64,000 nucleotides of DNA from assembly GCF_900105385.1 (NCBI RefSeq), contig NZ_LT629772.1:5890001-5954000 (forward strand). The letters run 5' to 3'. Shown here one piece after another: positions 1 to 64,000 of this stretch. Source of the DNA: Microlunatus soli. Its GTDB lineage: Bacteria > Actinomycetota > Actinomycetes > Propionibacteriales > Propionibacteriaceae. A program made the translations under genes and the position numbers. Under the pieces are notes generated by a model. It worked only from the letters and a program-made list of their open reading frames with translations, was not told where the DNA came from and made no database searches. Position 1 is the first letter of the stretch, and each line of letters opens with the position of its first letter.

Positions 1-1173
1 CTGGTGATCGATCCGTTGACCCGCAGCTTCGATGTCGCCGATCATCTCGCGGACATGATCACCCACATGGCCGACGCCCAGACCGCCGACGGCCTGATCC
101 CCAGCATCACACCGGAGCTGGTCGTCTTCGACCACCCGACCCACATCGGCGACGACCACGGATTCCGTGACGACGTCAACTGGGGCAGTGCCATCTGGCA
201 GTTGCCGTGGGCGCTCTACCGGACCTACGGTGATCTTGCCCCGGCACGGGCGGCGTGGGAGCCAGGACTGGCCTATCTCCGTTACCTGCAAGGGATCGCC
301 GGCGACGGACTGCTCGACCACGGGCTCGCCGACTGGATCACCCTGGACGACAGCACACCGCGCGTGCTGGTCGCCAACTACGGACTGATCAGCATGCTGG
401 ATGTCGGTGTCCGGCTGGCAGAGGTCCTGGGACACGAGGACGAACGACGCCGGTTGGCCGAGACGGCCGGTCGGCTCCGGCGGCTGCTGGCCGACGATCA
501 GATCCGGGAGACGGACGGCGGGCCTCGGATCGGGTCGGGCAGCCAGGCGAGCCTGGCGTTGATGATCGACCTCGGTGGCGTGTTGTCGGCCACCCAGCAG
601 CAGCACGCCGAGCAGGAGCTGGTCGAACTGCTCCACCGCGGCGGAGGCCGAATCACCGTCGGCGAGATCGGCCTACCGGCACTCGTACGGGTGCTGACCC
701 GACTGGGCGAACACGAGCTGATCCGGACGATGGTGAGCCGGACCGATGTTCCCGGCTACGGGCAGATGCTGGCCGCGGGGTATACCGCCCTGGCCGAACA
801 CTGGACCGGCGCGGCCTCCCGCAAATCGGCCAATCACTTCATGCTGGGCTACATCGACCGTTGGCTGACGGGCTCGATCGGCGGCCTGGAACAGGCGCCG
901 GGTGATGTCGGCTGGCGGCGTGCGGTGGTGGCGATCGCGCCGCTGGCCGGACTCGATCGAGCACAGCACGATTACGACGGACCGAGCGGTCGATGGGCGC
1001 TGGAGTGGCAGCGGGACGGCGACACGGTCCGACTCCGGATCACGGTCCCGCCCGGTGCCGAGGCGGAGATCGTCACCCCGGCCGGATTCCGCGACGCCGC
1101 GGCCGACCGTCACCGCTGGACGGTCGGCCCGGGTGATCAGGTGATCGACTTCGTAGAGATCGTCACCGCGTAA
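1..1173 (+). CDS. Alpha-L-rhamnosidase (GH78), C-terminal part, 5' end outside window
   Basis: The frame is open from base 1 and ends in TAA, giving about 390 residues of a longer protein. It reads as the (alpha/alpha)6-barrel and C-terminal beta domain of a GH78 alpha-L-rhamnosidase, which removes terminal rhamnose from pectin-type glycans or plant glycosides. Supporting stretches are the barrel segment [22 protein letters not shown] near the start and [20 protein letters not shown] near residue 280, which matches the family's NHY..G...W motif. The catalytic acid region probably lies upstream or at the visible edge, so activity cannot be judged. Its last 37 bases overlap the 3' end of the convergent GH2 gene. 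A related six-hairpin glycosidase is the main alternative. Confidence 0.75.
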
Positions 1174-4103
1174 CGGTAGGGTCGGACCGGCATCCGGTAG
1201 CGGTCGGGCAGTGCCGGTCCGCAGGAGGCCGACCCGAGACCCTGCTGACCATGATCGATGTTCAGCCAGACCGAGCCGGAGTCGACCAGGTCGTGGGGAT
1301 GCCTGGCCCGCTCCAGTGCCTCACTGGTCCAGCGCCGTACGGTGAAATCGAAGGTCGGCTCGCCGGCGAAGCGCAGCGTCGGCAGCCCCGGACCCGACAA
1401 CTCCAGCCACCGGGTCTGCAGGTGATTGCCGTTCTCCTGCGGCACCGGGTAGTTCACCTGCAGGTCGTCGATGGTGGCCGCATACCGGCCGACCCGGCCG
1501 GCCGATCGACTGTCCCGATAGGTCTCCTGGGGCCCGAGTCCGAACCAGCGCACATCGGTGTAGTCGGCCGGCAGCCGGAACCGTAGACCGACCCTGGGCG
1601 GTGTGACGTGATAGTCGCCGTGCGGTGTACCGTCCCAGATCCCGGCCGGCTCGGCGTCGAACTGCAGCCGTAGCCGTCGAGCATCGAGTTGATCATGATC
1701 GGCCGACCATCGGGAGGTCGATCGGAAGCCCAACGTCTGGGTCGCCGGACCGCTGCGCACCGCGACCGTGACTCCTGCGTCGTCGGCGTCGACGGCATCG
1801 GTGCGGTGCAAGAAACGATCAAGACCGACGGCGGCCCAGTCGGCGGCCATCGTGTTGCGTCGACCCTGACCGCGGTCGTTCTCGATCGGTGCCCGCCAGA
1901 CGTCGATGATCGGACCGCCGATCGGCACACCGTCCAGGTCGGTCAGCTCACCGGAGGCGGTGTCGAACGTCGCCGGACCCAACCGGAGCTGATCATGCTC
2001 GGTCGTCGGGCTGATCTCGCGGCTCGAGCTCAACGGCTGCGACGATGAACCGTTCGGCAGCTGCACCTGGGAGGTCGCAACCCGCTGGCCTGCCGGCGCC
2101 CAGCCGGTCGCCTCGGCGAGTGTCACGGTGATGGTCAGCCACCGTTCGACACTGCCGGCCGTTGCGGTGCTCGCGACATCGGCATCCACAGGCATCGGGA
2201 CGGTGACGGTGCTGCGCGGCGGGCAGGCCGGGACGGCGAGCGTCCCGTCGGCGGTCGGGACGCCATCCTCCTCCAGCTGCCAGGCAAAGTCGAGATGATC
2301 CAGGTCGAGCATGTCGTAGCGGTTCCGGATGATCAGTCCGTGATCACCGCCGGTGATCTGCACCGGCTGGATGACGGCGGCGTATTCGGCCAGCGCCGGT
2401 GACGGGCTCCGGTCGGCGAAGACCAGCCCGTTCAGGCAGTAGCGGCCACCGTTGGGTCGGCCGGGGAGATCGGCGCCGTGCCGGACGTAGCTGATGCCCT
2501 CCGGCGTGACACCGTTCAGGCCGTGATCGATCCATTCCCAGACGAACGCACCAGCAAAACGATCATGGCGTTGCAGGATGTCCTGATAGTCCTGCAGTGA
2601 TCCCGGACCGTTGCCCATCGCGTGGCCGTATTCGCAGAGCAGGAAGGGCAGCGTCCGTCGGCGGCGGTCATCGGCCGAGCCAGGCTCGATGCTCGGTGGC
2701 GTGGGCTCCAGGCGCCGACCGATCTGTTCCAACTGATCAAGGTCGGGATACATCAGGCTGGAGAAGTCGGAATAGCGATAGCTCGGGTCGCGCTCGTAGT
2801 GCAGCGGCCGGCTCGGGTCGCGGTCGTGGATCCAGCCGGCCGCCTCCTCCAGGTTCCGCCCGCACCAGCTCTCGTTGGCCAGCGACCAGACGATCACCGA
2901 CGGATGGTTCTTGTCCCGTTCGACCATCCGGCCGATCCGGTCCAGCACCGCATCCCGCCACTGCGGCTCATCGACCGGATTGCCCTGCCAACCCGCGTAG
3001 ATGAATCCGTGGGTCTCCAGGTCGCACTCGTCCACCACCCACAATCCGTACTCGTCGCAGAGCCGGAGGAATTCCGGGTGCGGGGGATAGTGCGCGGTGC
3101 GGACCGCGTTGATCCCCGCCTGTTTCATCATCAGCACGTCGGTGATCATGGTCTGCCGGTCCAGGGATCGACCATGATCGGGATGGTGTTCGTGCCGATT
3201 GACGCCGCGGAGCAGGACCGGTGCGCCGTTCACCAGCAGCCGTCCGTCGACGATCTCTATCCGGCGGAAGCCGGTGCGGACCGTGACCTGTTCGCCGGGG
3301 GTGCGGATCAGGACGTCGTACAGCCGTGGACGTTCCGCGCTCCACGGCTGCACCGCGGGAATCACCGTCGCGCTGCCGGGGACGCAGCTCAGCTCGAGTT
3401 CGGGGATGTCGATCCGGGCCGCGGGGTCGCAGTCCACCCGAAGGTTGCCCGAACCGGTGGTCGGATCGAAGTCGGCGTGCACGAAGACGTCGTCGATGCA
3501 GCCGTCCGGCCGGGACAGCAACTCGACATCGCGGAAGATGCCGGGCAGCCACCACATGTCCTGGTCCTCCAGGTAGCTGCCGGAGGACCAGCGATGGACC
3601 CGGACGGCCAGCAGATTGGGACCTGGCCGGAGCCGATCGGTGACGTCGAACTCGAACGGTAGCCGGCTGCCCTTGGAATGGCCCAGCAGTTCGCCGTTGA
3701 GCCAAACGGTTCCGCAGGAGTCGACACCCTGGAAGCGCAGCACGCTACGGCCGGACGGCCAATCGTCCGGAACGGTGAACCCGAGGCGGTAGTCGCCGGT
3801 CGGGTTCTCTGTCGGCACCCGTGGCGGGTCGATCGGGAACGGGAACGCGGTGTTGGTGTACCGCGGCGCATCGTGGCCCTGCAACACCCAGTGACCCGGG
3901 ACGGTGATCTCATCCCAGTCCTGATCATCGGTACCGGGATCGGCCCACGCCGGACCGGTGCCGTCGGCCGTCGGACTCAGCCGGAAGCGCCACTGCCCGT
4001 TCAGTGAGAGCTGGGGCGCATCGGACAGCAGATCGGCACGCGGCCGGCGCCGGCCGGCGCCGGGGATCGGGTCCTCGTGCAGGCGTAGTTGATCAACGAT
4101 CAC
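1137..4103 (-). CDS. Beta-galactosidase, GH2 (LacZ-type, 988 aa)
   Basis: Full-length LacZ-family enzyme hydrolysing terminal beta-galactosides. The order is a jelly-roll sugar-binding domain (about 35-200), an immunoglobulin-like domain (about 200-290), a TIM barrel (about 290-590) and C-terminal beta domains with the small-chain domain. The acid/base is Glu411 in WSLANES, following the family's RD.NHPS motif. The nucleophile is Glu491 in [11 protein letters not shown]. There is no signal peptide, so it should act on imported oligosaccharides. It is the last gene of the minus-strand operon, 7 bp after the SorC gene. LacZ of E. coli is 1024 residues, so nothing is missing. The true substrate could be another beta-galactoside of arabinogalactan or pectin side chains, as the GH127 and GH78 neighbours suggest. 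Confidence 0.93.
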
Positions 4104-4110
4104 CGGGGGT

Positions 4111-63473: not shown

Positions 63474-63532
63474 TCGGTAGCCAGACTGGCATCACGTCCA
63501 CAACACATGTCCGGCGATCCGGAAGGGATTCC

Positions 63533-64000
63533 ATGAACAATCCGACCACCGATCTACTGGCCGAGCTGCGCTCCACAGTCGCGCCCGATCGCGTTGTCAC
63601 CGAGGGCCCCGAGTACGAAACTGGTCGCCAACTCTTTCTCGCGCCGACCCGGGCCCGGCCGGCCGTGATCGTGCGGTGCACGTCGACCGCCGACGTCCAG
63701 GCAGCCGTCCGTGCTGCCCGGCGGCACGGCATCGGTCTCGTCGTTCGCTCCGGCGGACACGATCTCTTCGGGCGATCGGTCCGCGATGGCGCGCTGGTCG
63801 TCGACCTCGGTCGGATGCGCTCCATCGACATCAACGACGAAACCCGGGTCGCCGAGGTCGGTGCGGGTGCGCTCTCCGCCGACCTCGTTACAGCCGCTGA
63901 GCAACACGACCTGACCGCCGTCACCGGAACAGCAGGGACTGTCGGCATCGCCGGCCTCACAATCGGGGGAGGCTACGGACCGCTGATCGGCCGCTTCGGT
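63533..64000 (+). CDS. FAD-dependent oxidase, PCMH/BBE type, N-terminal part (cut by window end)
   Basis: 156 codons run open to the last base, starting at ATG 63533 after GGAAGGGA. The PCMH FAD-binding domain is clear: RPAVIVRCTSTADVQAAVRA, then RSGGHDLFGR, whose histidine is the usual site for 8-alpha covalent FAD linkage, then DLGRMRSIDI and TGTAGTVGIAGLTIGGGYGP. Related enzymes are berberine-bridge-like and hexose oxidases. The C-terminal BBE part is not visible. Confidence 0.9.
   Translation, partial: MNNPTTDLLAELRSTVAPDRVVTEGPEYETGRQLFLAPTRARPAVIVRCTSTADVQAAVRAARRHGIGLVVRSGGHDLFGRSVRDGALVVDLGRMRSIDINDETRVAEVGAGALSADLVTAAEQHDLTAVTGTAGTVGIAGLTIGGGYGPLIGRFG

Follow-up and report, generated by a model that had tools for sequence, protein, structure and literature searches.

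Among the systems described so far, the highly iterated palindromes (HIP) of cyanobacteria come closest to the subject of this report. In the accessible part of the article by Elhai (2015; PMC4390886), HIP densities are given as about 500-2500 per Mb and those of HIP1, the 8-mer GCGATCGC, as 300-2700 per Mb; some genomes with HIP1 are described there as being without a CGATCG methyltransferase. The same source mentions an excess of TGATCA, which it calls modest, in group C1 of the marine picocyanobacteria. Our own subject is this hexamer in an actinobacterium, Microlunatus soli. A stretch of 64,000 nucleotides from its genome (NCBI RefSeq assembly GCF_900105385.1, contig NZ_LT629772.1, positions 5,890,001 to 5,954,000 of the forward strand), which as a whole we call the window, contains TGATCA 119 times. 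We confirm that the excess is real and amounts to thousands of copies beyond protein-coding need; it points to a signal at work across the genome, pronounced in some sister species and weak in others. Another kind of dense short word shared across a clade, the DNA uptake sequence (DUS) of the Neisseriaceae and the uptake signal sequence (USS) of the Pasteurellaceae, is tied to competence and is not palindromic. It has been reported, in the portion of the paper on which we draw, that DUS are lacking in gained and lost regions (PMC2397512).

The first-pass annotation of the window had estimated about 119 copies, lying in and between genes, against a random expectation of about 5. Indeed the exact count is 119 and, at a fraction of G and C (GC) of 0.672, the mononucleotide expectation is 5.2; the resulting ratio of 22.7 is the top one among all hexamers of the window. 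The expectation is 29.2 under a trinucleotide Markov model and 89.4 under one of maximal order, the latter value being raised by the excess of TGATC and GATCA themselves. The copies are spread over the whole window (1..64000) with varying flanks, and 101 fall in the 54 called genes. Shuffling synonymous codons within each of these genes yields 43.0 +/- 3.9 copies; a null that also keeps the dinucleotides at codon junctions yields 56.5 +/- 3.5, and one that keeps the next two bases yields 70.2 +/- 2.8. Under each of the three nulls, none of 200 shuffles reached 101. Palindromes of the same composition are at expectation in the same genes under the first shuffle (TCATGA 15 against 13.8, AGATCT 16 against 16.5, TGTACA 4 against 5.8). 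Two outcomes had been named beforehand as refuting selection on the word, a codon-shuffled null that reproduces the count and an equal enrichment of such palindromes; since the shuffle stays short of 101 and the control palindromes are at expectation, neither occurred. By frame, the first shuffle gives 38.7 for xTG ATC Axx, where 66 copies are found, and 4.3 for xxT GAT CAx, where 35 are found and where two less-used third bases are required. Two qualifications belong here: 43 of the 101 copies are already predicted by the first shuffle, and GATC overall (857 against 553) and CGATCG (107 against 69.5) are also raised over it.

Beyond the window, the chromosome of the source genome, which we label G000 (other genomes carry labels of the same form), is a single contig of 6,732,914 bases with 10,310 copies of TGATCA, or 1531 per Mb; the reversed control ACTAGT occurs there 51 times. 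Coding DNA sampled from six enriched genomes (398 kb) holds 691 copies where 319 are expected, the highest z among hexamer classes, and 185 against 14.8 in the frame xxT GAT CAx. Across 464 kb of G000, 80 copies have no overlap with a called gene. Over the intergenic segments that were analysed, TGATCA is the top hexamer of both G000 (79 against a trinucleotide expectation of 23.8) and G006 (81 against 20.5); TCATGA is mildly raised there (22 against 10.0 and 20 against 8.8, respectively), well under TGATCA. Genes were called by a simple in-house caller that can miss some, therefore a part of these "intergenic" copies may be coding. The codon nulls, the intergenic excess and the chromosome count together support the earlier proposal of selection on the DNA word itself, acting genome-wide. 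As to the orientation of neighbouring genes, the intergenic DNA of G000 (5.69-6.15 Mb) has 8 copies in 17.0 kb of divergent gaps and 22 in 8.9 kb of convergent ones, and that of G006 has 21 in 14.7 kb and 10 in 6.5 kb.

Codon choice in G000 is bent toward the word at several positions. Aspartate is encoded by GAT at a frequency of 0.94 when the codon stands between T and CA (the context T_CA, n=170), at 0.58 between T and C followed by another base, and at 0.23 in the context T_G. A fourfold degenerate codon followed by GATCA ends in T at 0.31; followed by other GAT or by GACCA, it does so at 0.11 and 0.04, respectively. This gain is made at the expense of both C and G (G goes from 0.19 to 0.09). 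Leucine is TTG at 0.51 before ATC-A against 0.21 before other ATC, and glutamine is CAA at 0.52 after TGAT against 0.17 after other GAT. Valine is GTG at 0.95 before ATC-A against 0.78 before other ATC; the Nocardioides value before ATC-A is 0.31. The C/G shift in valine cannot be taken as specific to the word, as it is mostly present before ATG and other ATC already, and only the increment counts. Both transitions and transversions at several positions thus lead to TGATCA, which would argue for selection or drive rather than a single biased mutation or repair channel. Apart from the word, GTG is used for valine at 0.78-0.97 before ATG and ATC codons generally in G000 and G006, not before AC or AA; the outgroup actinobacteria do not have this preference, and only Nocardioides before ATG (0.66) comes near it.

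Protein content may be affected as well. Tripeptides of the form V/L/M-I-N/T/K/M number 626 against 476.7 in G000 and G006 (1.31) and 170 against 115.1 in G004 and G009 (1.48); the ratio is 1.12 for the weaker members of the genus and 0.95 for outgroups. For Met-Ile the ratios are 2.11 and 2.61 in the same two pairs, against 1.36 in weaker genus members and 0.81 in outgroups. The first-pass annotation had further suggested that related genomes be compared for conservation of sites. Between G000 and G006 we compared 149 orthologue pairs with a median identity of 78%. TGATCA is indeed kept in 218 of 250 counts where the amino acids are conserved, every pair being counted from both sides; the control palindromes are kept similarly (TCATGA 32/37, AGATCT 36/44), hence site-by-site conservation says nothing that is specific to the word. 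In the T_CA contexts of these pairs the frequency of GAT is 0.77-0.97 also when the counterpart genome does not have the context, so that the word is rebuilt and not merely kept at fixed places.

The preferred word is longer than TGATCA and graded, about S-W-TGATCA-W-S (S being G or C, and W being A or T). At 160 intergenic sites of G000 and G006, with flanks symmetrised, W prevails at position -1 (A 0.36 and T 0.25, against 0.17 and 0.18), S reaches 0.84 at position -2, and little is conserved past these two bases. Pooling the coding DNA of G000 and G006 puts TTGATCAA at 7.45x the shuffle; taken separately, the values are 6.0x in G000, 8.2x in G006, 7.3x in G007 and G012, 12.5x in G004 and G009, and 6.3x in G015 and G001. 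G023, from another genus of the family, stands at 6.7x (3 copies), mid-density members of the genus at 2.9x (7 copies) and weak ones at 3.3x (1 copy), and no copy was seen in the coding samples of Nocardioides, other actinobacteria and other genera of the family. By composition the top 8-mer is ATGATCAT in G000 (75x) and TTGATCAA in G006 (98x). Words near TGATCA are graded too (TGATCG 1.74, AGATCA 1.71, GGATCA 1.18, TGACCA 1.00). G000 and G006 have the GATC core at 1.64x the shuffle; the corresponding figures are 1.29 for Nocardioides, 1.23 for other actinobacteria and 1.20 for weak members of the genus. Several candidate explanations or patterns were dropped along the way. A repeat family or mobile element is rejected on the flanks, which are unconserved beyond about 2 bases, and tandem repeats behind close pairs are rejected as, among 294 neighbouring pairs within 60 bp, just 11 resemble repeats. 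No clear long-range periodicity is seen. We set aside the rise in close pairs (1.6x under 50 bp), which has no codon-aware control, and a depletion of TGATGA, which the raised pool of GAT may have produced as an artefact.

The strength of the signal differs widely among relatives. Across 96 genomes, G000 included, 11 exceed 850 TGATCA per Mb: eight of the genus (G000, G001, G004, G006, G007, G009, G012 and G015) and three from other genera of the same family (G021, G023 and G046, at 887-1173 per Mb). In G023 and G046 the context effect on GAT and TTG is visible, with small counts. Over the 20 genus genomes the density runs from 194 to 1875 per Mb, and the core recurs once per 530-710 bp in strongly enriched species. 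G004 and G009 have 30 times the copies expected from composition, the clade of G000 has 16-20 times and the remaining genus 5-13 times. A tree of 19 of the 20 genus genomes (without G013), built from 1942 aligned residues and midpoint-rooted, keeps the clades (G000, G006, G007, G012), (G004, G009) and (G001, G015) apart by weak species; its alignment has many gaps in G001, G008, G015, G005 and G016. This tree is compatible with separate gains as well as with repeated losses. A trace of the preference extends to six weak genus members, where leucine before ATC-A is TTG in 9 of 84 cases, as against 3 of 301 before ATC with another following base (p 1e-4). The count before ATC-A is 0 of 71 for Nocardioides, Kribbella and other actinobacteria, and other genera of the family, 15 genomes pooled, show no such trace (0.07 of 45 against 0.07 of 243). 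In a wider survey of 396 Actinomycetota at least 90% complete, in which no other member of the family was drawn, G000 comes first and the next genome has 589 per Mb.

Certain properties of these samples should be kept in mind. Genome sizes behind the densities of both surveys are rounded, and in the larger one the top rank is read from the listing, 14 of the highest values having been recomputed. The pooled row of other genera covers 15 of 20 genomes, since G027 had no stretch, G020, G021 and G031 had no called genes and G046 was excluded as enriched. The outgroup rows comprise 41 loci, from 80 among the matches listed, with loci containing N skipped; the Kribbella row includes locus L098, which is titled Streptomyces sp. 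SID13031. Samples from the draft genomes G001, G005, G008, G013 and G017 are small, and the names of families and orders are taken mainly from record titles.

The annotation had also offered a methylation or a phosphorothioation site as possible reasons for the excess, and the gene content covered here supports neither. No Dam-type methyltransferase (MethyltransfD12, PF02086) is present in G000, the one genome searched for it. PF01555 scores above the cut-off in G018, G019, G012 and G003, is sub-threshold in G000 and is missing from G006 and G004; the G000 match to PF01555 and PF02384 is a single UPF0020 RlmKL-like RNA methyltransferase. PF00145 is matched in 8 of the 20 genus genomes, including G000, G007, G009 (partially) and G004 (weakly). 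The G000 match is one full-length C5 methyltransferase of 457 aa; neither G006 nor G012, which are just as enriched, has any. Full or nearly full PF02384 domains occur in G006 (three matches), G019, G018 and G014, partial ones in G005 and G012, and short matches in G000 (the UPF0020 protein), G007, G009 and G002; G004 has none. Hence, of the three families searched over the genus (PF01555, PF00145 and PF02384), not one is shared by all six of the strongly enriched genomes. A weak methyltransferase match that G000, G007, G012 and G009 do share was considered and discarded, as it is the UPF0020 RlmKL-like protein in G000 and G012, the two that were read. As for phosphorothioation, dndC is found in just one of the 20 genus genomes, G011 (G011:C1:4137605-4138945), whose TGATCA density is low, and in none of the enriched ones of the genus.

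How may the excess be explained? We believe that TGATCA could be the core of the longer graded palindrome, and that its density along the chromosome would be kept high by selection on the DNA word itself or by a drive that acts like selection. The word may be the recognition site of a putative sequence-specific DNA-binding protein that the genus inherited and that would act at chromosome scale, perhaps in nucleoid architecture, segregation or repair; the degree of dependence on it would then vary among lineages. The first-pass annotation, too, had named a nucleoid-protein site as one possibility. Graded flanks are, in our opinion, more in keeping with the binding of a protein than with the strict recognition site of such an enzyme as those of type II. 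That TGATCA serves as the recognition word of such a protein acting along the chromosome is a proposal we hold tentatively, as the likeliest of the readings weighed here, at somewhat less than an even chance. A fuller version, in which a chromosome-wide DNA-protein recognition system, so far undescribed and with an unmodified palindrome of about 10 bp, was inherited by one genus, was amplified separately in at least two lineages and bends codon choice and dipeptide content, we put forward as possible and on balance doubtful; if it is true, the TGATCA excess of picocyanobacteria would be a parallel case. Several points weigh against the binding-protein proposal. No candidate gene or protein for the putative binder was found, and the distances between pairs show no clear helical phasing. 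GATC is raised in every context (the 1.64x over shuffle given above), which is broader than TGATCA, and GTG for valine in G000 is high also before ATG (0.91) and before ATC followed by another base (0.78), against 0.37 before AC. The avoidance of divergent gaps is inconsistent, with 0.47 copies per kb in G000 but 1.43 in G006. The peptide comparison is complicated by the unequal base composition of some strong and weak genomes, and selection and drive are not separable here.

The GATC core invites the thought that a methyltransferase of another family, or one differing by lineage, modifies GATC or TGATCA and that linked repair or self-marking accumulates the sites. Cyanobacterial HIP usually accompany a cognate methyltransferase, as far as the available part of PMC4390886 goes, and room for an enzyme is left by PF07669 and PF05063, which were outside the search, and by PF02086, which was searched in G000 only; moreover G000 has its full-length C5 methyltransferase and G006 its three PF02384 matches. 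Against this stand the want of a PF01555, PF00145 or PF02384 match common to the six strongly enriched genomes (G006 is without the first two, G004 without PF01555 and PF02384), the graded extended flanks, which are unlike strict enzyme sites, and the direction of the changes: the repair model of Elhai, as given in the accessible text, yields G-mC sequences, whereas aspartate, leucine and glutamine codons here go to A/T. We therefore consider a modification site unlikely. Should an uptake or recombination machinery prefer the word, copies would accumulate in the manner of DUS, with a strength that varies by species, and a dense short word with graded near-matches that is shared genus-wide at variable strength looks much like this. 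DUS and USS are non-palindromic, however, unlike TGATCA. DUS are reported to be lacking in gained and lost regions (PMC2397512, in the part available), whereas genes here with no or a weak match in the compared stretch of the other genome are nearly as enriched as orthologues: enrichment in orthologues against such genes is 2.11 against 2.09 in G000 and 2.11 against 1.87 in G006 (partial stretches, 420 kb of G006). The test is a weak one, as the comparison covered a part of each genome. Uptake drive is thus disfavoured and, in our estimate, quite improbable. We would give no better prospects to a context-dependent mutation or mismatch-repair bias that makes the word without selection. It would affect coding and intergenic DNA alike, as is observed, it would suit the high GAT frequency at T_CA in orthologues where the other genome is without the context, and a part of the shift is broader than the word (GTG for valine before ATG). 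On the contrary, the favoured changes include C to T (aspartate, leucine), G to A (glutamine), G to T (fourfold codons) and the C to G increment (valine), which would not come from one channel, and an aspartate shift of 0.94 against 0.23 would be very large for a context effect. Lastly, the word might be no more than an ordinary outcome of base composition and codon usage, as xTG ATC Axx is built of common codons and the shuffle predicts 43 of the 101 copies. As an account of the excess this is very improbable: no shuffle reached the observed count under any null, and G006, G012 and G019, with near-equal sampled GC (0.662-0.667), have 1695, 1404 and 556 copies per Mb. Sampled GC is no clear predictor of the ratio of observed to expected copies over the 20 genus genomes either (rho -0.36, p 0.11).

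Returning to the described systems, the case before us is best read as resembling a HIP without a recognised cognate methyltransferase, as far as tested. With HIP1, as presented in the accessible part of PMC4390886, it shares a palindrome with a GATC core that is found genome-wide, extends past the core and varies among related genomes; the best 8-mers, at 75 (G000) and 98 (G006) times the expectation by composition, lie within the 55-228 given there for HIP1. TGATCA has the strong palindrome excess over composition by which HIP are recognised, and it exceeds the codon expectation as well. Densities must be compared with care, since the 1531 per Mb of G000 refer to a 6-mer and HIP1 is an 8-mer; single 8-mers in G000 have 62-166 per Mb. 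The differences are the word itself, the actinobacterial clade, the graded flanks and the lack of a single dominant 8-mer (TTGATCAA and ATGATCAT have 99-212 per Mb, HIP1 300-2700), as well as a cognate methyltransferase common to the enriched genomes, which is missing among the tested families (PF07669 and PF05063 not searched). The picocyanobacteria of group C1 share the identical hexamer and, according to the same portion of that source, are set apart from cyanobacteria with the GATC methyltransferase DmtA; they belong to a distant phylum, and the graded motif, the codon-null test and the species contrast are met only here as far as that text goes. Among the matches listed from the open-licence literature, at the level of titles and abstract openings, we found no description of a TGATCA excess in actinobacteria. 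Why one palindrome fills some bacterial genomes is an open question, which in cyanobacteria is entangled with methyltransferases. A single genus with an almost tenfold range of density, untracked by the tested methyltransferase families and in some members at near-equal GC, hence offers a natural experiment: DNA modification, DNA-binding proteins and mutation spectrum can be set side by side in its strong and weak species.

Within the window, the examples with A/T-ending codons singled out by the first-pass annotation are all present, and all lie in the frame xxT GAT CAx of called genes. The copy at 12975..12980 reads CTT GAT CAT in a sulfatase-family gene (12544-14040, + strand). Those at 15986..15991 and 61310..61315 both read CTT GAT CAA within TTGATCAA, in called genes at 15384-16352 (+) and 61155-61880 (+), and the copy at 44495..44500 reads CTT GAT CAC in a DUF222 gene (43776-45137, +). 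Three copies spaced 15 bp apart (41746..41781) are situated in the N-terminal part of Rho (41066-43165, +), which is RDQ-rich and of low complexity; in this protein a long RDQ/RDN-rich low-complexity stretch precedes the RNA-binding domain. The longest stretch free of TGATCA, 36162-40355 (4.2 kb), covers a homoserine dehydrogenase gene and a PALP-family gene, the latter probably encoding threonine synthase. A second palindrome above the codon shuffle, CGTACG, is raised among the samples of G006 (77 against 30.5), G009 (61 against 31.7), G019 (45 against 22.9), G003 and G014, and in the intergenic DNA of G006 (40 against 17.7); in the G000 window it is outside the four top palindromes.

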